Source: Agrobacterium pusense (GTDB taxonomy: Bacteria > Pseudomonadota > Alphaproteobacteria > Rhizobiales > Rhizobiaceae). From it: a DNA stretch of 64,000 bases. The first letter of the stretch is position 1; every line of letters starts with the position of its first letter. Made by a program: the position numbers and the translations under genes. The notes below the pieces were generated by a model. That model was not told the DNA's origin and ran no database searches. It was given only the letters and a program-made list of their open reading frames with translations. The stretch is from NCBI RefSeq assembly GCF_900102105.1, contig NZ_FNBB01000007.1:1-64000 (forward strand). Reading direction: 5' to 3'. Positions 37,803-50,529 of this stretch are shown in pieces.

Positions 37803-37976
37803 TCACGGCCTATTCGAAATCGAGGATCGCGGCCGGTTATCACCATCGTCCAGTGCCCGCCAGGCGGCCCCATCCATGTCCTCATACTGGCCCGAACGCA
37901 CGGACCAGAGGAAGGCAAAAAGTCCGAGTGCACCTAATAGCAGCGCAACGGGAATGAGATAGATCAGCATGTTCAT
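37803..37976 (-). CDS. fixS: cbb3 oxidase maturation protein CcoS/FixS
   Basis: A 57-residue membrane protein read by hand on the minus strand: MNMLIYLIPVALLLGALGLF, then WSVRSGQYEDMDGAAWR and a polar tail. The transmembrane helix followed by SGQY(E/D)D is the CcoS signature. It is needed for cofactor insertion into the cbb3 terminal oxidase. Its ATG overlaps the fixI stop (ATGA). Confidence 0.9.
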   Translation of the reverse strand: MNMLIYLIPVALLLGALGLFAFLWSVRSGQYEDMDGAAWRALDDGDNRPRSSISNRP

Positions 37977-40264
37977 GTCAGTTGCGCCCCCTCGCCCGCA
38001 AACCCGGTCTCTGGTTCATTCCGACGACCGGCGGATTCAACCGATCCGGCGAGGCGCAATGCGTTGGCGACGACGATCAGCGACGATGTCGACATGGCGA
38101 TAGCCGCGATCATCGGCGTCGCATAACCAGCAATCGCGATCGGCACGGCAATGATATTATAGCCGATGGCAAGCGCGAAGTTCTGCCGGATGAGCTTTCC
38201 GGCCTGCTGCGACGTCTCGATCGCGAAAGGCACGGCATCGAGGTCCTCCTGCATGAAAACAAAATCGGCGGCCTGCCGGCCGATATCGGCCGCGGTGGCG
38301 GGCGCCATCGAAACATGTGCGGCGGCGAGCGCCGGCGCATCGTTGATACCGTCTCCCACCATCAGGACTTTGTGCCCTTCCCCGGTAAGCGAGGCGCAAC
38401 GCGCCGCCTTGTCCTTCGGCGACAGGTCCGCGCTCCAGTTGGCGATCCCCAGCCGGTCGGCCATGGCGCTGACAGCTGCTGCCCGGTCACCCGAAACGAT
38501 TTCCTGAGCCAAACCCCGCACCGACAGGCTGCGCAATGCCGCAGCCGCACCTGCGCGCGGATTGTCATCGAAACCGAAGCTCGCCAGAAGGCGGCCATCG
38601 AGTGACAACACCACCTCCGACCGCGCATTGCCGTTGTCGGCACCCTCATCATCCGGGCACGCGAAACGGCGGTTACCGAGCCGATAGGTTCCCACACCAG
38701 TCTTCGCCTCGACGCCCGAACCCGGGATTTCATGCACCGTCTCATACGCCGGCAAAGGGCCGCTGTAGGCGGCATGCAGAGCTTTTGAGAGGGGGTGGCG
38801 GGAATGGGCAGCAAGTCCTGCCGCAATTGCCATGGTGGCGGGCTTTACCTCGCCCGTCTCGACCAGTCGCGGCCTGCCGATGGTCAATGTGCCGGTCTTG
38901 TCGAACAGTACGGTATCGATCTCCGCCAGTCGCTCCATGGCCGACCCTTCCTTGACCATGATCCCGTGCCGGAAAAGCCTTCCCGCGGCCACCACCTGCA
39001 CGACGGGAACGGCAAGGCCGAGCGCGCAGGGGCAGGTGATGATGAGAACCGCGATGGCGATCAGCATCGCCTGCTTCCAGTCGCCACCGAAGAAACCCCA
39101 TCCGAGAAACGACACAAGCGCCAGAAGATGGACGACGGGCGAATAATAGCTTGCGGCCCGGTCGGCAATACGGCGGTAACGCGCTCGCCCACCTTCGGCC
39201 GCCTCCATCAGACTGATGACCTCCGACAGGAATGAATCCCTGGCCGAGGCGGTCACCCGGGCCACCAGCGAACCGGTAAGGTTCAGCGTACCCGCCTGCA
39301 GGCTGTCACCCGCCGCAACACGCCGTGGCGCGCTTTCACCATTGACGATCGACATGTCGAGATCGCTGCTGCCACTCTCGACCACCGCGTCCACCGCCAC
39401 ACGGTCTCCTGCCGCTATCGCAATCGACATTCCCGGCTCGATATCAGCAAGCGGGCGGTATTCGCGTGTTCCGTTCTCACCGAGGACGGTCGCGCCCCGT
39501 GGCGAAAGCCGGGCGAGCCCGGCAATCGCCGAACGAGCCTTGTCGCGCATGATATGATCGAGCGTGCGGCCGATCAGCAGGAAGAACAGCAGCGACACCG
39601 TCGCATCGAACCAGGCATGTTCACCGTGGTGGATCGTCTCCCACAGCGAAACGGCATAGGACAGCGTGATGGCCAGTGCGATCGGCACGTCCATGTTTGT
39701 GCGGCCGTGTTTCAGCGCGCTCCAGGCCGACTGATAAAAGAAACGCCCACCGTAGATCAGCGCCGGGGCGGCGATCATCGCCGAAATCCAGTGAAACATG
39801 TCGCGCGTCGCCGCATCCGCGCCGGACCAGACGGAAACGGACAACAGCATGATATTGGCCGAGGCAAAGCCGCATAGCGCAACCGCCCTGATCAGCTGCG
39901 AACGCAACGCGTCGGAAGCGTCCTGACCACTGGCGAAAAGATGCGTGCGGTATCCCGTCGCCAGAATGGTGCGGGCAAGGTCGGCGGGATCGGTCCTGAC
40001 ACCCTCGACCTCTTCTCTCCAGACAATCGCAATACGCTTGGACGAAAGGTTCAACCGCGCCCGCTCCACCTGCGGCAAGCGGCCGAGCGCGCTCTCCACG
40101 GTGGTGATGCAGGCGCCGCAATAAACATCCGGCACGCTGAGATCGGTCTGGCGGAGACCCTGCCCGAGATCACGGCTTGCCAGCATCAGCTCCTCTGACG
40201 ACGGTGGATTGACCGGATCGGCAAGTTGCAGCGATCCTTCTGTCCCCGGTGCACAACAGCTCAT
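37973..40264 (-). CDS. fixI: Copper-translocating P-type ATPase FixI/CcoI
   Basis: A 763-residue P1B-type ATPase exporting copper toward cbb3 oxidase assembly. An N-terminal metal-binding domain has VYCGACITTVES. The membrane CPC motif is in ITCPCALGLA, the phosphorylation site in LFDKTGTLT, and MVGDGINDAPALA is the hinge. I start at 40264 (MSCCAPGTEG), whose ATG overlaps the fixH stop by four bases. Confidence 0.94.
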   Translation of the reverse strand: MSCCAPGTEGSLQLADPVNPPSSEELMLASRDLGQGLRQTDLSVPDVYCGACITTVESALGRLPQVERARLNLSSKRIAIVWREEVEGVRTDPADLARTILATGYRTHLFASGQDASDALRSQLIRAVALCGFASANIMLLSVSVWSGADAATRDMFHWISAMIAAPALIYGGRFFYQSAWSALKHGRTNMDVPIALAITLSYAVSLWETIHHGEHAWFDATVSLLFFLLIGRTLDHIMRDKARSAIAGLARLSPRGATVLGENGTREYRPLADIEPGMSIAIAAGDRVAVDAVVESGSSDLDMSIVNGESAPRRVAAGDSLQAGTLNLTGSLVARVTASARDSFLSEVISLMEAAEGGRARYRRIADRAASYYSPVVHLLALVSFLGWGFFGGDWKQAMLIAIAVLIITCPCALGLAVPVVQVVAAGRLFRHGIMVKEGSAMERLAEIDTVLFDKTGTLTIGRPRLVETGEVKPATMAIAAGLAAHSRHPLSKALHAAYSGPLPAYETVHEIPGSGVEAKTGVGTYRLGNRRFACPDDEGADNGNARSEVVLSLDGRLLASFGFDDNPRAGAAAALRSLSVRGLAQEIVSGDRAAAVSAMADRLGIANWSADLSPKDKAARCASLTGEGHKVLMVGDGINDAPALAAAHVSMAPATAADIGRQAADFVFMQEDLDAVPFAIETSQQAGKLIRQNFALAIGYNIIAVPIAIAGYATPMIAAIAMSTSSLIVVANALRLAGSVESAGRRNEPETGFAGEGAQLT

Positions 40265-40761
40265 TGGCGCCCCCTGACAACGGCGATCCGCGTGCCCTCG
40301 TGCACGATGATCCGGCCGTTCTTGACGGCTGTAATTTCTACGATCCACTGACCCGGCAGCATGTCATGCGGGCCGGTAAAGACCCCTTTGGCAACCGGGG
40401 TCAGCTCCATGTCGAAATTCTGGCGCTCCCCGACGGGCCGGCGAAAATGCGCGATCACCTGATCGGTATCGACCGGGCCGGTATCGGGATGAAAGACCTC
40501 GTAGCGGACCGTCCTTTCGTCCACCGCAAGTTTACCCTTGATGCCGGTCGCCGCCCTCGCCTTGGCTGCTTCCGCCTTCGCGTTGAACTGCTGGCTGGCT
40601 ACATAGGTATTCGGCACGACAAGCCCGCTCCAGCTGTTGACCGCGTTCCAGGCCATCACCATGTTGACGGTGATGACGGTGCCGAAAAACAGCAGCATGA
40701 CGCCCAGCATATGCCAGCCGGTAAAAGTGAAACCGGACGTGTGACGATTGTTCACGGTCAT
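40261..40761 (-). CDS. fixH: FixH-family cbb3 oxidase assembly protein
   Basis: A 166-residue protein with one N-terminal membrane helix (WHMLGVMLLFFGTVITVNMV) and a periplasmic beta-rich domain (VPNTYVASQQFNAKAEAAK). The conserved helix-plus-(V)NTY segment is diagnostic of FixH/CcoH. Its start overlaps the fixG stop by four bases, so translation is coupled. Confidence 0.9.
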   Translation of the reverse strand: MTVNNRHTSGFTFTGWHMLGVMLLFFGTVITVNMVMAWNAVNSWSGLVVPNTYVASQQFNAKAEAAKARAATGIKGKLAVDERTVRYEVFHPDTGPVDTDQVIAHFRRPVGERQNFDMELTPVAKGVFTGPHDMLPGQWIVEITAVKNGRIIVHEGTRIAVVRGRQ

Positions 40762-42341
40762 TTTGTCGCTCCCGGAACGTTGAAAACAGCGTCATAGCGG
40801 GCCGTCTCATGGCCGCCCGTATCGCTGACGATAAACTCGAAATTTTCCGCGGCCCGAGCGACGCGCCCGCCCGGCCGGGTGACGAAGACCTTCAGCGTCG
40901 TCGCTTCATCCGGCTCCACCGTCACCTCAAAGGCACGCGCGGCCGCATCGGGCATACCGTTTATCTTCATCACGGCATCAGGAAGGCCATTGATGGTCAG
41001 GCTCATTGTGCGCGGCTGCGGCACCATGTTGAGGATGCGCACGGTGTAGCCGTTGCGGATGGATCCGTTCGATTCCAGCACATATTGCGGATTGCGGTCG
41101 TGCAGAACATTGAGCGCCAGCCGCTCGCGCGTCACCAGCGCAAACAGCATGCCGATGCCGACAGCCGCCCAGATGGCAGTATAAAGCAGCGTGCGCGGAC
41201 GGAAGATGATGCGCCAGTTGAAGTGGCGCACGCGCTTGCTGAACTTGCCGTCTTCCTCACGCACGTTGGCTGGGCGGATTGCGTGCTGACCGTTGCCGGT
41301 CGCGAGCGCCATGTTGGATTGATACTCGGCAAGCGTGGCATAGGCGATCAGGCCACGCGGCTTGCCGATCTTGTCCATCACCCCGTCGCAGGCATCGATG
41401 CAGAGCGCGCAGGTGATGCATTCCAGCTGCTGCCCGTCCCTGATGTCGATGCCCATGGGACAGACCGCCACGCAAGCGTTGCAATCGACGCAATCGCCGA
41501 CGCTCTCCCCCGCTGCGGCGGCCTTTTTGGCGTGCCGTGAGCGTGGCTCGCCGCGCCAGTCGTTATAGGTGACGACAAGCGAATTCTCATCCAGCATCGC
41601 CGCCTGAATGCGTGGCCAAGGGCACATGTAGGTGCAGACCTGTTCCCGCATCAACCCGCCAAAGACATAGGTCGTGGCGGTGAGGATGGCGACGGTCGAA
41701 TAGGCAATCATGGGCGCCTGGCCGGTGACGAATTCCCGCGCCAGCGTCGGCGCATCGGCGAAGTAGAAAATCCAGGCGCCGCCGGTCAGGGTGCCAATCA
41801 CCAGCCAGATCGCGTGCTTCAACACTCGCTTGCGGAATTTGCCGACTGTAACGGGCGCGGCGTCCAGCTTCATGCGTGCATTTCGGTCACCCTCGATCGC
41901 CCGTTCGACGACGAGAAACAGGTCCACCCACACTGTCTGGGGACAGGTATAACCGCACCATGCACGTCCCACGGCGGAGGTGATGAGAAACAGCCCCAAC
42001 CCCGCCATGACCAGCAATCCCGCGACGAAGAAAAATTCCTGCGGCCAGATTTCGATGAAAAAGAAATAAAAGCGTCGATTGGCGATATCGATCAATACCG
42101 CCTGATCGGGCGCATAGGGGCCACGGTCCCAACGCAGGAACGGCGTGAGATAATAAATGCCGAGCGTGACGAGCATGACAAGCCATTTGAACCGCCGGAA
42201 CCGACCTTCCGCGCGCTTGGGAAAAATCTTCCTGCGTGCTTCGTAAAGCGGTTTGCGCGTTTTTGCGGAATTGACGGCCTCCGCGTCCAGCCTTTCAAAG
42301 GGCTGCTTCTGGCGTTCCTGTCCGGCGCGATAGATGTTCAT
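40758..42341 (-). CDS. fixG: FixG/CcoG, cbb3 oxidase assembly ferredoxin-like protein
   Basis: A 527-residue membrane protein with about five transmembrane helices and a cluster-binding region: CVDCNACVAVCPMG followed by CITCALCIDACD, two 4Fe-4S sites, plus GYTCPQTVWVD and CTYMCPWPR. The C-terminal periplasmic domain has an Ig-like fold (FixG_C). CcoG is a cupric reductase in cbb3 biogenesis. I start at 42341 (MNIYRAGQE); the longer frame would run into the FixK box. It leads fixGHIS. Confidence 0.93.
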   Translation of the reverse strand: MNIYRAGQERQKQPFERLDAEAVNSAKTRKPLYEARRKIFPKRAEGRFRRFKWLVMLVTLGIYYLTPFLRWDRGPYAPDQAVLIDIANRRFYFFFIEIWPQEFFFVAGLLVMAGLGLFLITSAVGRAWCGYTCPQTVWVDLFLVVERAIEGDRNARMKLDAAPVTVGKFRKRVLKHAIWLVIGTLTGGAWIFYFADAPTLAREFVTGQAPMIAYSTVAILTATTYVFGGLMREQVCTYMCPWPRIQAAMLDENSLVVTYNDWRGEPRSRHAKKAAAAGESVGDCVDCNACVAVCPMGIDIRDGQQLECITCALCIDACDGVMDKIGKPRGLIAYATLAEYQSNMALATGNGQHAIRPANVREEDGKFSKRVRHFNWRIIFRPRTLLYTAIWAAVGIGMLFALVTRERLALNVLHDRNPQYVLESNGSIRNGYTVRILNMVPQPRTMSLTINGLPDAVMKINGMPDAAARAFEVTVEPDEATTLKVFVTRPGGRVARAAENFEFIVSDTGGHETARYDAVFNVPGATK

Positions 42342-42397
42342 GATAGGAGTCCGGTTTTTATCTCCTTGCTTTCTCCCATCTCTGCGGTGAAACATCC

Positions 42398-43307: not shown

Positions 43308-44714
43308 TCAGCGTTCCCAGTCCTCCCGCTCGCGTGTGGTCGTCTTCCCGAGCTTGCGTTCCAGCTCTGCGGCCTGCGCTTCGGAAAGGCGAACATCGAG
43401 GGCAACCGAACCATCCTCGTGATCTTCCCGCCCGTCGACGATGGAATTGCTGTAGACCCAGGAAATCAGCGGCAATTGTTCAACGGACAGGACCACGGTC
43501 GTCTCCGTCAGAACACCGGAGAGGCGTTTCGAAATCTCGTCCATCAGGGCATCGACGCCCTCGCCGGTGATCGCAGAGACAGCACGAATATTGGCGCTGC
43601 CTTCGGCTCTTTGCATGATGGCGTCGTGGGCTTCCGGATCGAGGCGGTCAACCTTGTTCCAGACCTCGATGATACGGTGCTCGGCTTCCTTTTCGTCAAT
43701 GCCGAGATCGCCGAGAATGCGCAGCACATCCGCCGACTGCGCGGCATTGTCCGGATCGGACATATCGCGGACATGCAGGATGAGATCGGCTTCCAGCACT
43801 TCTTCCAGCGTCGCACGGAAAGCCGCGACCAGATGTGTCGGCAGATCCGAAATGAAACCGACCGTATCGGACAGGATCACCGTGCGGCCGTGCGGCAGTT
43901 TCATGCGCCGCAATGTCGGATCGAGTGTGGCGAACAGCATGTCCTCGGCCAGAACGCCCGCACCGGTAATGCGGTTGAACAGCGTCGACTTGCCGGCATT
44001 GGTATACCCGACCAGCGCCACGATCGGATGCGGCACTTTGCGGCGCTTGGCGCGATGAAGCTGGCGGGTTCGCACCACCTGCTCCAGTTCCCGCTCAAGC
44101 TTGACAATGCGTTCCTGAAGCAGGCGCCGGTCAGCCTCGATCTGCGTTTCACCGGGGCCGCCCATGAAGCCCGCGCCACCGCGCTGGCGTTCAAGGTGGG
44201 TCCAGCTTCGAACGAGGCGACCCTTCTGATAGTTGAGATGCGCAAGATCGACCTGCAGCGTACCCTCCTTGGTGGAGGCTCGGCGCCCGAAGATTTCCAG
44301 GATCAGGCCCGTTCGGTCGATAACCTTGGCATTCCAATGCTTTTCGAGATTGCGCTGCTGTACCGGCGTCAGCGGATGGTCGACAATGACCAGGCCGGAA
44401 TTGGTTTCATCCAGAAGATGACCGATTTCCTCGATCTTGCCGGTGCCGAACAATGTCGCCGGGCGTGGCTGGTTGACCGCGACGATGAGCCCCTGGGTCA
44501 CCTCGAGATCGATGGCGAGCGCCAGCCCCTTCGCTTCCTCAAGCTTCGCCTCGACCGAGCGGCCAGCAGCGGCAGGTGATGCAGCCGCGTCGCGGGTGTC
44601 GCGCTGCTTCAGGACCGGCACAAGAACCACGGCGCGCATGTCGTCGCGGTGTTTTTCCTGCTCGGGAATGATCGATTCGTTCGAGGTGTCGCGGGTCGAA
44701 ATGGCAGTCCTCAT
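43308..44714 (-). CDS. hflX: Ribosome-associated GTPase HflX
   Basis: A 468-residue GTPase that binds the 50S subunit and splits stalled ribosomes in heat stress. The HflX N-domain (PRPATLFGTGKIEEIG, GRRASTKEGTLQVDLAHLNY) is followed by a coiled-coil segment and the GTPase (G1 GYTNAGKST, G3 DTVGFI, G4 NKVD). The start is uncertain: the ATG at 44714 is used, but a TTG at 44768 or an ATG near MRAVVLVPVL are possible. It lies directly downstream of hfq on the same strand, the classic hfq-hflX order. Confidence 0.92.
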   Translation of the reverse strand: MRTAISTRDTSNESIIPEQEKHRDDMRAVVLVPVLKQRDTRDAAASPAAAGRSVEAKLEEAKGLALAIDLEVTQGLIVAVNQPRPATLFGTGKIEEIGHLLDETNSGLVIVDHPLTPVQQRNLEKHWNAKVIDRTGLILEIFGRRASTKEGTLQVDLAHLNYQKGRLVRSWTHLERQRGGAGFMGGPGETQIEADRRLLQERIVKLERELEQVVRTRQLHRAKRRKVPHPIVALVGYTNAGKSTLFNRITGAGVLAEDMLFATLDPTLRRMKLPHGRTVILSDTVGFISDLPTHLVAAFRATLEEVLEADLILHVRDMSDPDNAAQSADVLRILGDLGIDEKEAEHRIIEVWNKVDRLDPEAHDAIMQRAEGSANIRAVSAITGEGVDALMDEISKRLSGVLTETTVVLSVEQLPLISWVYSNSIVDGREDHEDGSVALDVRLSEAQAAELERKLGKTTTREREDWER

Positions 44715-44821
44715 CGGGAAAGACGGTTGGAATTCGTCCGCGCCGGCGCGGACGTCAATAGGAAGCAACCGCCCAGCGGCAAATAAGTTCCCGGTGCGGT
44801 TGGTCCATTAAGAAGAGAAGG

Positions 44822-45304
44822 TCAGGACGCCTCGCGTGCAGCGCCTTCTTCGTTTTCGAACATCTGCATCGGCTGACCCGGCATGATGGTCGAAATAGCG
44901 TGCTTGTAGACAAGCTGTGCGTGATCGTCGCGACGCAGAAGCTCGCAGAAATTGTCGAAAGCCGTGACCACGCCCGTGAGCTTGACACCGTTGATCAGGA
45001 AGATCGTCAGCGCAATGTTCTTCTTGCGAACCGTGCTGAGGAACAGATCCTGAAGGTTCTGCGAGCGGTCCGGACCTTCTTCGATTTCGAGTTCCAGCGG
45101 CTGTCCGGGCATGATGGTCGAGATCGCATGCTTGTAAACCAGCTGCGAATGACCGTCCCGGCGCAGCAGAACGCAGAAATTATCGAAGGACGTTATCACG
45201 CCCGTGAGCTTCACACCGTTGATCAGGAAGATCGTCAGTGAAATCTTTTTCTTGCGTACGGTGTTGAGGAAAAGATCTTGAAGGTTTTGAGAACGTTCCG
45301 CCAT
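44822..45304 (-). CDS. hfq: Tandem (two-domain) Hfq RNA chaperone
   Basis: A single 160-residue frame encoding two complete Hfq/Sm domains. Copy A is residues 4-79 and copy B residues 80-155, offset exactly 76 codons (228 bases). The first 66 residues of each copy agree at 58 positions. Both keep NLQD (the E. coli Gln8 region), GVKLTG and the Sm2 signature YKHAIST. Basic rim residues VRKKK / VRKKN are kept. Copy B has Glu121 where copy A has Val45. A short acidic linker (ELEIEEGPD) joins them. Typical rhizobial Hfq is about 80 residues. It is in the usual place between trkA and hflX, under no frameshift or stop. Confidence 0.93.
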
Positions 45305-45488
45305 GGCGCCGCTTCTTTCTTTTTTGCCGGCAGGGATACCGGAAAATAATCAATCAATAATAAGCCGGCCAAATCTCGTCCCCCGTTTGGCCGACCTCAA
45401 ACTCTGGTATCAAATCGTGTCTTGTTCGGCAACGGCGAAAACAGTCGAATGGGTACGAGTATTGACCCGTTTTCTGCCGTCGAAACAG

Positions 45489-46865
45489 TCAGAAATATTG
45501 TATCGAAACGCGGAAAAGCTGTTCCACGTCCCGCACCGCGTCGGCGGAGGCGAACAGTACGACACGGTCTTTCGCCTTGATCTTGGTGCTCCCGTCCGGC
45601 CGGATGACCACGCCATCGCGATATATCGCGCCGATACGGACGCCTTCGGGCATTTCAACGTCACGAAAGGACTGGCCGACAAGCGGTGACGTTTCCAGCG
45701 CCTCCGCCTCGATCACCTCTGCCGAACCGCGCTGCACGGCATAGACGGAACGAATACGACCCTTGCGCACATGCTGGAGAACGCGGGAAATGGTGACCGC
45801 CCTCGGATTGATATAGGCGTCAAGTCCGAGCGAGTCGGCAACCTCGTGAAAGGAGGAACTGTTCAAAAGCGCGAGGTTCGACTTGCAGCCGAGTTGCTTG
45901 GCCATGACCGCAGCCAGGATATTGGTCTGGTCGTTATTGGTCAGGGTGACGATCAGGTCCGCGTCCTGAATGTCGGCCTGCATGAGAGTTTTCTGGTCCA
46001 GCGCTGAACCATGCATGACGATGGTGTGGCTGAGCTGTTCCGATGCGGCAACCGCCCTGTCGCGATCCGCTTCGATAATTTTCACCCGCGTCTTTGGCTG
46101 CAACTCCTCGATCTTGCTGGCAACGAAGTGGCCGATATTGCCCGCGCCCGCAATAACGATGCGCTGCGCCTCCTGCTCTTCGTGACCGAACAGGCTGAGC
46201 GTGCGGCGGGCGTGTTGCCGCTGGCAGATGACGTAGGCAAGGTCGCCGACCCGCAATTGTTCGGAAGAATGCGCCACCTTGAGGAAACCATCCCGGTAGA
46301 CACCCACAACCGTCGCGATGAGGTCTGGAAAGAGGCTGGAGAGTTGCTGCAACGGCGTATTGATGACCGGGCAATCCTCCATACATTCGATGGCCAGCAT
46401 GTAGACCGTGTCGTCCGCGAAACGCACCACGTCGGTCGCGCCCGGAAAGGCGATGCGCCGCAAAACCATCTTGCCGACTTCAACTTCCGGCGAGATCGTC
46501 ACGTCGATGGACATGTTTTCGCGGCTGAAGAGATCGGCATATTCAGGCTTAAGATAGCTCTGGTCGCGGATGCGGGCGATCTTGGTCGGCACGCTGAACA
46601 AGGCATGCGCAACCTCGCAGGCGACGATGTTGATTTCGTCATGCAGCGTCACGGCGATGATCATGTCCGCCTGGTCCGCTCCGGCCTTGGCCAGCATGTC
46701 CGGATGCGCGCCGTGGCCGACGTAACCGCGGACATCAAGCGTCTCTGTGATGGCGGTTATCAAGGACGCGGCGGTATCGATGACGGATACTTCGTTGTCC
46801 TCGCGCGACAATTGTTCGGCGATGCCGTAACCCACCTGCCCTGCGCCGCAAATGATGACTCTCAT
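45489..46865 (-). CDS. trkA: Trk system potassium uptake protein TrkA
   Basis: A 458-residue cytosolic regulator of Trk-type potassium channels. It has two Rossmann RCK-N domains (MRVIICGAGQVGYGIAEQLS at the start; RIVIAGAGNIGHFVASKIEE in the middle) each followed by an RCK-C domain. It binds NAD(H)/ATP. No trkH is in the window, so its channel partner is elsewhere. It sits between ntrX and hfq, the conserved alphaproteobacterial order. Confidence 0.95.
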   Translation of the reverse strand: MRVIICGAGQVGYGIAEQLSREDNEVSVIDTAASLITAITETLDVRGYVGHGAHPDMLAKAGADQADMIIAVTLHDEINIVACEVAHALFSVPTKIARIRDQSYLKPEYADLFSRENMSIDVTISPEVEVGKMVLRRIAFPGATDVVRFADDTVYMLAIECMEDCPVINTPLQQLSSLFPDLIATVVGVYRDGFLKVAHSSEQLRVGDLAYVICQRQHARRTLSLFGHEEQEAQRIVIAGAGNIGHFVASKIEELQPKTRVKIIEADRDRAVAASEQLSHTIVMHGSALDQKTLMQADIQDADLIVTLTNNDQTNILAAVMAKQLGCKSNLALLNSSSFHEVADSLGLDAYINPRAVTISRVLQHVRKGRIRSVYAVQRGSAEVIEAEALETSPLVGQSFRDVEMPEGVRIGAIYRDGVVIRPDGSTKIKAKDRVVLFASADAVRDVEQLFRVSIQYF

Positions 46866-46913: not shown

Positions 46914-48278
46914 TTATACGCCGAGAGATTTCAGTTTGCGATGCAGTGCAGAGCGTTCCATGCCGACAAATTCCGCCGTTCGCGAAATATTGCCCCCGAA
47001 TCGGTTGATCTGCGCCACCAGATAGTCTCGCTCGAACATTTCGCGAGCTTCGCGCAACGGCAGCGTCATGATGTGCTGATCGCCCTGAGCCGATATCTTC
47101 GGCAGCATGTCGCCGATATCGGACGGCAGCATGTCAGCAGAGATCGGGGCTTCACCGCCTTCGGGACGCGCCAGTATCATCAACCGCTCGATATTGTTGC
47201 GAAGCTGTCGAATGTTGCCCGGCCAGTCATGGGTCTGAAGAACGGCCATTGCGTCGTCGCCGATCTTGCGCGGACGGATGCCAGCCTGTTCGGAAATCTG
47301 CCGCATGAACATGTCGACGAGGAAGGGAATATCCTCACGTCGCTCGGACAGCGCCGGTACCTTCACCGGCACGACGGCGAGCCGGTGGTAGAGATCCTCA
47401 CGGAACTGGCCCTCGGCGATCAGGCTTTCGAGGTGATGGGCCGTCGACGAAATGATGCGCACATCAACCTTCACGCGCTTGCCGCCGCCCACACGCTCGA
47501 ATTGCTGATCGACAAGCACGCGGAGGATCTTGTTCTGGGTCTCGCGGGGCATCTCGCCCACTTCGTCGAGATAAAGAACGCCACGATGGGCTTCTTCCAG
47601 TGCGCCCACCTTCCGGGGCTGTCCAGGCAGGCCTTCGGTGCCGAAGAGTGCAATCTCCATGCGATCCGGCGTGATCGTCGCGGCGTTAAGGGCAACAAAG
47701 GGACCCGTCGCCCGAGACGACTTTTTGTGGATCATCCGCGCCACCAGTTCCTTGCCGGAACCTGACGGGCCGAGAATCATGATTCGGCTGTTGGTGGGCG
47801 CGACCCGGTCGATGGTCTGGCGCAGCTGCGATACCGCAAGTGACGCACCGACAAGTTCAACCGCATCCCCCGTGCGCTTCTTGAGCTCCTGAACCTCGCG
47901 CTTCAGCTTGGAGTTTTCCAGCGCGCGTTCGGCAATGAGAATAAGGCGGTCAGCCTTGAACGGCTTTTCGATGAAGTCGAAGGCGCCACGCTTGATGGCG
48001 TTGACGGCGGTTTCGATATTGCCGTGACCGGAAATCATGACGACCGGAATTTCGGGATGGCGGCTCTTGATCTCGTCCAGCAGCGCCAGACCATCGAGCT
48101 TCGAACCCTGCATCCAGATGTCGAGGAAGATCAGGCGCGGCACGCGTTCCGAAATGGCAGCCAGCGCGCTGTCGCTGTCGAACGCCATACGCGTTTCATG
48201 CCCCTCATCGGAGAGAATGCCCGCCACGATTTCGCGAATGTCCGCCTCGTCATCCACGACCAGAATATCAGACGCCAT
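46914..48278 (-). CDS. ntrX: Nitrogen-regulation response regulator NtrX
   Basis: A 454-residue response regulator. The receiver domain has Asp53 (RLIFLDIW). The AAA+ domain has Walker A GPSGSGKE and Walker B LYLDEVGEM. Where sigma54 activators have GAFTGA this protein reads GTEGLPGQPRKVGALEEA, so it may not activate sigma54 in the usual way; the same is known for other alphaproteobacterial NtrX. A Fis-type DNA-binding end (NISRTAEFVGMERSALHRKL) follows. It overlaps ntrY by 11 bases. Confidence 0.94.
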   Translation of the reverse strand: MASDILVVDDEADIREIVAGILSDEGHETRMAFDSDSALAAISERVPRLIFLDIWMQGSKLDGLALLDEIKSRHPEIPVVMISGHGNIETAVNAIKRGAFDFIEKPFKADRLILIAERALENSKLKREVQELKKRTGDAVELVGASLAVSQLRQTIDRVAPTNSRIMILGPSGSGKELVARMIHKKSSRATGPFVALNAATITPDRMEIALFGTEGLPGQPRKVGALEEAHRGVLYLDEVGEMPRETQNKILRVLVDQQFERVGGGKRVKVDVRIISSTAHHLESLIAEGQFREDLYHRLAVVPVKVPALSERREDIPFLVDMFMRQISEQAGIRPRKIGDDAMAVLQTHDWPGNIRQLRNNIERLMILARPEGGEAPISADMLPSDIGDMLPKISAQGDQHIMTLPLREAREMFERDYLVAQINRFGGNISRTAEFVGMERSALHRKLKSLGV

Positions 48279-50529
48279 ATGCTGCTTCCTTGTTATTTTC
48301 GCCGCCGACCGCCTCGATATAGGGCAGCAGCACTCTGATCATGGCGCCGTGGCCATGATCGAACTCCGGCGGGGCATCATGGAGTTCCAGATACCCGCCA
48401 TGCTCTTCGATGATCTTCTTGACGATGGCGAGGCCAAGGCCTGTGCCCTTATCCCGCATCGTCATATAGGGTTCGAGAATGCGGTGGCGATTTTCCACCG
48501 GCAAACCGCGGCCATTGTCGATGATGTCGGCCACAAAACGCGAGTTGGTCTCGTCGAAGGACGCGCGAACGAGGATCTTGCCCGGCCGCTTTTCGCCTTC
48601 CACCGCTTCGATGGCTTCCGTCGCATTCTTGATGAGGTTGCCAAAGGCCTGCCCCAGCATGCGGGCATCGAACATGCCCTCCAGCGGGGTGTCACCCAGC
48701 TCCGTCGTGAACTTGGTGTCCGCGGCGCTGATTTCCCGGAGAAACGCTGCGTCCTTCAGGATCGCCCGCAGGTCCGACTTTTCCTTCGTTGGCTTCGGCA
48801 TACGCGCAAAAGCGGAGAATTCATCCACCATGCGGCCGATATCGCCGACCTGCCGGACGATGGTGTCCGTACACTGGTCGAAGACGGCGCGGTCACTTTC
48901 GTCGATCTGCTTGCCGAAACGGCGCTTGATGCGCTCGGCGGAAAGCTGGATCGGCGTCAGCGGGTTCTTGATTTCGTGCGCGATACGCCGCGCGACATCC
49001 GACCACGCCGTCGAGCGTTGCGCGATGACGAGATCGGTGATGTCGTCGAGCGTGATGACGTAGCTGTCACGGCTGTCGCGGGCGTCTTCGCGCGTTACCT
49101 GTACATTCAGCGTTCGTTCCTTGCCACGCCGCATAATGTTGATCTGCTTGCGGAAGTTGCCGCGCGACCAGCTGTTGGCCTCGTTGACGACCTGTTCGAT
49201 CTCAGGCGCGATCTCGGAGAGTTGTGCGCCAATGAGCTGTTCCGACGTTTGTGCGAGGAACTCTTCGCCCGACGGATTGACGATGGTTATCCTGCGGTTT
49301 TCGTCAACGCCGATAACCGCGGCGGTCACGCCTGACAGCACGGCCTCGATGAAACGGCGGCGATCATCGATGTCGTCCTTGGCCTCGATGATCTGCTCCT
49401 GCTGGCTGCGCAGTTCCGACACCATCTTGTTGAAGGTGCGGGACAGGCGCCCGACGTCGCCATCGACGGCGCGAACTGGAACGAGGACATGCATGTTGCC
49501 GGTGGCAACGCTGTCTGCGGCGCTGATGAGAAGGCGGATCGGCCGCACGATACGGTCGGCCACCGCAATGGCCGTCCAGATTGCCGCGAGCAGCACTATC
49601 AGCGCAAAACCGAGATAGAGAATTGCGAAGGCGATCTGCAGCGGGGCGCGGCCTGCCTCCATGGCCTTGTATTCGGCGCGGTTCTCTTCCATCAGCCGCA
49701 TCGCGCCCATCACCTTGGGATCGACCGCACGCACCGTATAAAGGAATGTGCCGCTGATGCCTTCGAGCTTGATGATGGCGCCTACGAGGTTGGTAATACC
49801 GGGCGGGATCAGCGTCGGCTGGCCGGCGGCCGCCTTTTCGAGCGCGTCATGCGGTATCGCGGGAAGGGGCTTTTCCGTCTTGATGTCGGCCTGGGCGACG
49901 GCGTCGCCATCCTCCTGCACGAGAAACGCACCAAGAAGGCCGCGCCCTTTCGCCTGGCGGGTCATAAGATCAACGAATCCGGTGCGGTCGAGATAAAACA
50001 GGGCGCGGTTGCGGTCGAGGTCGGTCGCCATCGACAGGGTCTGCCCCTGGAGGTAACCGGCATTCTCCATCATGTATGCCTGGGCGATATTACTTGATGA
50101 ATCGACGATCGACTGGGTGCGCAGCGAAAACCAGCGATCGAGACCGACATTCAGCGTCAGGCTGGCGAAGATGGCGACGAGCACTGCGGGCGTGATCGCC
50201 ACGATGGAGAAAAGGACGACAATGCGCACGTGCAGACGCGCCGCCGCCCTGCCCTTTTTGCGCGCTTTCAGCAGCCGGTTGATTTCGCGACCGATCAGGA
50301 AGATCAGGCCGATCACGAAGATCGAGTTGATGACGACGGAAGCGATGACCACGTTCGATGTCGGCGCGATTGGCGTGACGCCCAGCAGCACGAAAAGCGT
50401 GATGATGGCGCACACGAGGGCCACGCCGGCGAGCACCAGCCCCGGCAGAGCGAAAGACATCCTGCGATCGGCGACCACCATGCCCGCTGCTTCGTCGGCA
50501 ACGGCGTTTTCGGCGGCGGGTTTCCGCAT
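48268..50529 (-). CDS. ntrY: Nitrogen-regulation sensor kinase NtrY
   Basis: A 753-residue membrane sensor kinase. It has two N-terminal helices and a third after ~60 residues, then a periplasmic sensor region, a helix and HAMP ([17 protein letters not shown]), a PAS domain and the kinase core ([41 protein letters not shown]). It pairs with NtrX in sensing nitrogen or redox state in alphaproteobacteria. It begins ~150 bases downstream of ntrC. Confidence 0.94.

Follow-up and report, generated by a model that had tools for sequence, protein, structure and literature searches.

The window analysed here is a stretch of 64,000 nucleotides from Agrobacterium pusense, and the gene of interest in it is hfq (Table 1). 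Read on the minus strand, 44822..45304 is a single open reading frame (ORF) of 160 codons from ATG to stop; the plus-strand reading was discarded as an unrelated frame containing a stop. In a Pfam profile search, PF17209 matched the 160-residue chain twice (202 bits in total; cut-off 27). Each Hfq domain is above the cut-off singly, both stretches are free of stops and, because the two matches score 97 and 109 bits, chance is not a concern. The preliminary description of this DNA had read one uninterrupted 160-codon frame with two full Hfq domains at an offset of 76 codons, and the ORF, the two profile matches (108.9 and 97 bits) and the offset all agree with that reading. A profile search of the whole genome (28 contigs, 5.28 Mb) returned no third Hfq match, the two domains of this gene being the sole ones.

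Table 1. Features of the two-domain hfq locus (positions in the window)
Feature	Position	Strand	Basis
hfq, two fused Hfq domains, 160 codons plus stop	44822..45304	-	ORF; PF17209 twice
Domain A, N-terminal Hfq/Sm domain	45095..45283	-	PF17209, 108.9 bits, E 4.8e-31
Domain B, C-terminal Hfq/Sm domain	44867..45055	-	PF17209, 97 bits, E 2.5e-27
Linker, residues 70-80	45065..45097	-	tails and starts compared with single hfq
C-terminal tail behind domain B, plus stop	44822..44869	-	MQMFE.EEGAA like single Hfq, 4 extra residues REAS
Leader directly upstream of first ATG, purine-rich run	45305..45329	-	sequence comparison
hflX, downstream neighbour	43308..44768	-	HflX_C, GTP-bdg_N and GTP-bdg_M Pfam matches
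trkA, upstream neighbour	45489..46865	-	TrkA_N (two stretches), TrkA_C
ntrX-like sigma-54 response regulator	46914..48278	-	Sigma54_activat, Response_reg, HTH_8
ntrY, sensor kinase	48268..50529	-	NtrY_N

The linker looks like a former C-terminal tail fused to a former N-terminus minus its Met: at the junction the former tail runs through EEG, and the former start continues from right after the Met. Of the 38 genes in the genus that encode a single-domain Hfq, 14 have a leader identical to this one over all 25 bases. With hflX downstream (the mechanical TTG start of this ORF may sit too far upstream) and trkA, an ntrX-like gene and ntrY upstream, the gene occupies the usual alphaproteobacterial hfq setting. 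Further along the minus strand (37973-42395) lie ORFs that, by eye, we take to resemble a FixI-type cation ATPase, FixH and CcoG/FixG. In a tree built from 2.7 kb of flanking sequence, the window falls in a cluster of 21 rows (100/100), on its own branch of 0.14, with flank identity at or below ~88%.

A tandem of this kind could in principle be an assembly artefact. We found no point in support of this reading, and three observations speak against it: (i) 34 of the 198 core bases are not the same in A and B, (ii) another assembly has the same layout and (iii) the flanks are intact. The other assembly carries a second allele of the full 160-residue protein (P0001) on a contig of 2,844,565 bp, with one linker change, E73K; the contig of the window is shorter, at 243,339 bp, and has E at residue 73, so the second allele belongs to a different assembly. 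A 96-residue gene call that begins at Met65 and is identical to the window thereafter (P0008) occurs on 56 contigs. Given the large contig of P0001 and the 34 differing bases, an artefact is very unlikely indeed, and the earlier view that this is no simple assembly duplication stands. That view had also pointed to blocks of unequal similarity, which we recovered: a single base separates the 39-base blocks 44972-45010 and 45200-45238, and many differences lie elsewhere. The longest run between A and B with one mismatch is 42 bases, matched in 3% of 10000 codon shuffles, and the longest exact run is 26 bases, equalled in 17%; since shuffling yields such runs at these rates, the near-identical block supports gene conversion weakly, if at all.

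The fused Hfq is real and rare in its group. A profile search gave one Hfq match in each of the 38 other genomes of the genus, and all 38 proteins have 80 residues and one domain (one of them, at locus L147, carries a single change, at residue 2). The family sample, in which this genome is counted, comprised 297 genomes: 289 had a match, 8 had none and only this genome had two; with this genome set aside, 288/296 had one match and 8/296 none. In the order sample (397 genomes including this one), 372 had a match and 25 had none, and the sole other genome with two matches (G421, among the 371/396 others with a match) was rejected as a tandem, its two matches being fragments at contig edges. The three samples overlap, so their counts are not additive. 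Also rejected were G116 and G170, with two DNA matches each yet one Hfq apiece, and G825, a family genome from outside these samples whose two Hfq matches lie on different contigs of a genome that is 69% complete. No further tandem Hfq was seen among the sampled genomes of the genus, the family and the order (Rhizobiales). The separate matches of G825, a member of the family Rhizobiaceae, score 109 and 81 bits (L159, L161) and may reflect a paralogue or contamination.

Copies A and B agree at 58 of 66 core residues (codons 4-69), as first counted from the sequence, and differ at codons 14, 20, 22, 37, 39, 45, 51 and 53. The pair Val45 and Glu121, singled out in the preliminary description for a putative place near the proximal pore, is correct as sequence, and its picture of two diverged kinds of domain is supported, here inside a genus where 38/38 other genomes hold a single-domain Hfq. 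Across codons 4-69 of 37 genus genes (locus L150 left out) we counted at least 98 base changes and 0 amino-acid changes. Although hfq is so constrained, the fused gene has changed in both halves, and unevenly: copy A carries 2 replacements relative to the genus consensus, Q19K (shared) and V37I (its own), and copy B carries 8, namely Q19K in common with A and 7 of its own (N14S, K20N, S22A, S39A, V45E, G51D and S53A). More replacements have accrued in domain B than in single Hfq (a rough Fisher test, p 1.4e-5, that counts all 21 silent A-B differences as B's).

Seven private replacements, against none in 37 genus genes, raise the question of whether domain B is a drifting passenger, with the work of Hfq done by A alone. 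Between A and B, dS is 0.92 and dN 0.059, a ratio of 0.064 at which neutral change is rejected (p 2e-10), which argues against drift; if the two copies were separate alleles before the fusion, part of the silent divergence would be older and the dN/dS case for selection after the fusion would weaken. The domain-B protein is identical in both known alleles (the window and P0001), and B retains the residues that bind RNA in other Hfq proteins. We consider the passenger reading quite improbable. On the proximal side, the residues identical in the two domains are Q9/Q85, D10/D86, F43/F119, Y57/Y133, K58/K134 and H59/H135, which we take to form the pocket that contacts U-rich RNA; on the distal face they are F26/F102, G30, K32/K108 and L33, with partners at +76, presumably the contacts for A-rich RNA. 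Among B's changes, those at N14 and K20 fall in the helix-1/rim region and V45E in beta-3.

These observations suggest how the protein may be built. The protein, the only Hfq found in this cell, would be a single chain carrying two Sm-fold domains; three such chains would most likely close into one ring, with A and B in alternating positions around its six Sm folds. The preliminary description had already proposed a pseudo-hexamer of three tandem chains, and that proposal is reasonable. Such a ring would retain the uridine- and A-rich-RNA-binding residues in both domains and would present two kinds of rim and of beta-3 surface. From the sequence we infer the three-chain ring, the alternation of A and B, the RNA-chaperone work and the importance of B's changes; the 35 matching PDB sequences, all of 114 residues or fewer, include no two-domain Hfq.

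There are at least two other possibilities for the product, both of which appear weaker than the three-chain ring. The chain could be cut, or translation could begin internally (for example at Met65), giving single-domain subunits that enter an ordinary or mixed hexamer. Some gene calls do begin at Met65 (P0008, P0009), but such a call in a database may reflect the choice of the gene caller alone, and a purine-rich run like that ahead of Met1 is missing from the 25 bases that precede Met65. A search of both strands for an intragenic promoter gave 1 promoter-like match, at 45138-45111, close to what shuffling predicts (mean 0.4, sd 0.7). As the second hexamer of this match overlaps the Met65 codon, a transcript begun there would lack that start. 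Cleavage had been raised in the preliminary description, and no sign of it was found. We regard cutting or internal initiation as unlikely. Alternatively, the two domains of a chain could enter different rings, yielding ring dimers or larger arrays. This arrangement has no direct support, and the narrow repeat offset of the tandem proteins listed (76-83 residues in 113/113; see below) would suit one repeated geometry, without telling which; linked rings, too, seem improbable.

Two-domain Hfq as such is already known and is common in sphingomonads. When the 160-residue protein was used as a query, a simple scan of the best 120 proteins, drawn from 8000 scored candidates, found two domain anchors in 114, three in 3 and one in 3; one of those with a single anchor (P0032) nevertheless holds two domains. 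Few of these entries carry organism names: among the best 120, 6 of the 7 named organisms are, as we take it, sphingomonads and 1 is a 'Pseudomonadota bacterium'. Of the best 80 loci fetched from named genomes, 77 have two domains in one frame, mostly under sphingomonad names, and the 3 single-domain loci are from Agrobacterium B6, CNPSo 675 and Neorhizobium tomejilense. In a sample of 80 genomes from the order of Sphingomonas adhaesiva, 20 genomes gave two matches, 58 one and 2 none; since 19 of the 80 look tandem, tandem Hfq is common but not universal there. The remaining two-match genome (G716) was rejected, its matches lying on different contigs and the second covering only profile positions 1-38. 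As G716 and G421 illustrate, two matches per genome do not prove a tandem.

Six database proteins deserve separate mention. Three two-domain proteins on contigs of 640-965 bases (P0005, P0006, P0007) pair a near-rhizobial first domain with a sphingomonad-like second domain and may be assembly chimeras. Three others (P0002, P0003, P0004), of 241-246 residues on contigs of ~0.8-1.1 kb, hold three Hfq domains and are either genuine triple fusions or products of misassembly across tandem copies.

In print, a ring of three chains was already raised for Zymomonas mobilis Hfq (ZMO0347) in a passage of a 2010 paper (PMC2877685), and Novosphingobium aromaticivorans is listed with two copies of hfq-like genes in an excerpt of PMC3474761. 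The passages seen of PMC9797736 and PMC3927594 contain nothing on two-domain Hfq. A literature search of partial coverage (few subscription papers; titles and the openings of abstracts) returned no report of a two-domain Hfq in Agrobacterium.

Both domains of the present protein are Agrobacterium-like, and inheritance from a sphingomonad was rejected on these grounds. Domains A and B of P0001 are identical to genus Hfq at 67/69 and 58/69 residues, and the means for the two domains of the 113 other tandem proteins are 50.9 and 35.7 of 69 identical to Agrobacterium Hfq. With no other tandem in the sampled genus, family or order, shared descent with the sphingomonad fusion is not supported; the fusion apparently arose in this Agrobacterium lineage, separately. 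Most likely, hfq would have been duplicated in tandem and in frame, the first copy losing its stop. A hfq tree from all codons groups A with B (93/83), and both copies have K19, where 38/38 genus relatives have Q.

Alternatively, the resident hfq may have recombined with a divergent allele that came from a related bacterium; this route concerns the origin and is compatible with the other readings. A and B show 20-21 silent differences from each other; the best figures against other Agrobacterium, in a comparison with all 38 other genus genomes, are 16-19 for A and 20-21 for B, so that the two copies are no closer to one another than either is to other members of the genus. At 17 of the 21 silent A-B differences both states occur in the genus, and a silent-site tree leaves A and B ungrouped. 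With the nine replacement codons removed, A and B come together in 24% of bootstraps and a constraint that groups them is not rejected (AU p 0.42); because A and B are ungrouped without those codons, the fused gene could instead stem from two divergent Agrobacterium-like alleles. Against this stand Q19K, common to A and B and missing from 38/38 others, the 93/83 grouping in the all-codon tree and the lack of a near donor for B: among 393 other family genomes (37 without a match; 7 of the 38 genus genomes are in this sample), the best match reached 84% near full length or, in one genome, 85% across 182 of the 207 bases. Plasmid and phage donors were likewise rejected. The best of 87 matching plasmid records reached 87.8% protein identity, and in the 15 plasmid matches listed both query pieces fell on one stretch of ~230-250 bases, that is, on a single domain; six phage-collection records matched, all below 60% identity. 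Silent sites alone do not decide between duplication and the fusion of two alleles, and we give the fusion of alleles a substantial chance, short of an even one.

Our best explanation is that the fused protein, the only Hfq found, serves as the Hfq of this cell, that three chains form a ring of six alternating Sm folds and that the fusion arose separately in this lineage, most likely by duplication; we put its probability at roughly 0.65. More tentatively, the protein may be a newly evolved bacterial hetero-Sm ring of three-fold symmetry whose rim and beta-3 surface come in two classes (N14S, K20N, V45E and G51D in B), in which B, released from the extreme constraint that acts on single-copy Hfq, is free to take up a new role with RNA or a partner; this is possible, and on present evidence we would bet against it.

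What is new here is an apparent second, separate origin of two-domain Hfq; the ring idea is already in print. The value of the case lies in that second origin together with the uneven evolution of the two halves. It lends itself as a natural experiment on whether the usual six-part ring can be assembled from three double chains, and the single-domain sisters in the same genus serve as controls for effects of the fusion on subunit count, symmetry and division of labour.

Compared with known systems, the single-domain Hfq proteins of Agrobacterium and other Rhizobiaceae share the locus, the leader and the core residues with the present gene; the 38 genus genes encode 80 residues and one domain, whereas this one encodes 160 residues and two. 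The closest solved sequence is PDB 6gwk (114 bits over residues 2-73), which we take to be from Caulobacter crescentus; its chain of 82 residues has a single domain, and ours has two. The sphingomonad proteins (from Sphingomonas, Novosphingobium, Erythrobacter and related genera, and ZMO0347 of Zymomonas mobilis) are alike in kind, with one chain and two Hfq domains in one open frame. Their repeat offset of 76-83 residues, in 113/113 tandem proteins listed, includes the 76 found here, and in 113/113 the first domain is closer than the second to Agrobacterium Hfq, as in the window; because the 113 were chosen for their resemblance to the query and most presumably descend from one ancestor, they amount to few independent cases. 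The second domain of the window keeps the distal-face Lys at 108; among 48 aligned tandem proteins, a set that includes the window and P0001, at least 90% have Met there, the residue of the sphingomonad-type second domain. A parallel can also be drawn to Sm/Lsm rings, which went from homomeric to heteromeric, and, if the hetero-Sm ring is true, the fused Hfq would repeat, on a smaller scale, the evolution of the eukaryotic Sm/Lsm hetero-oligomers.
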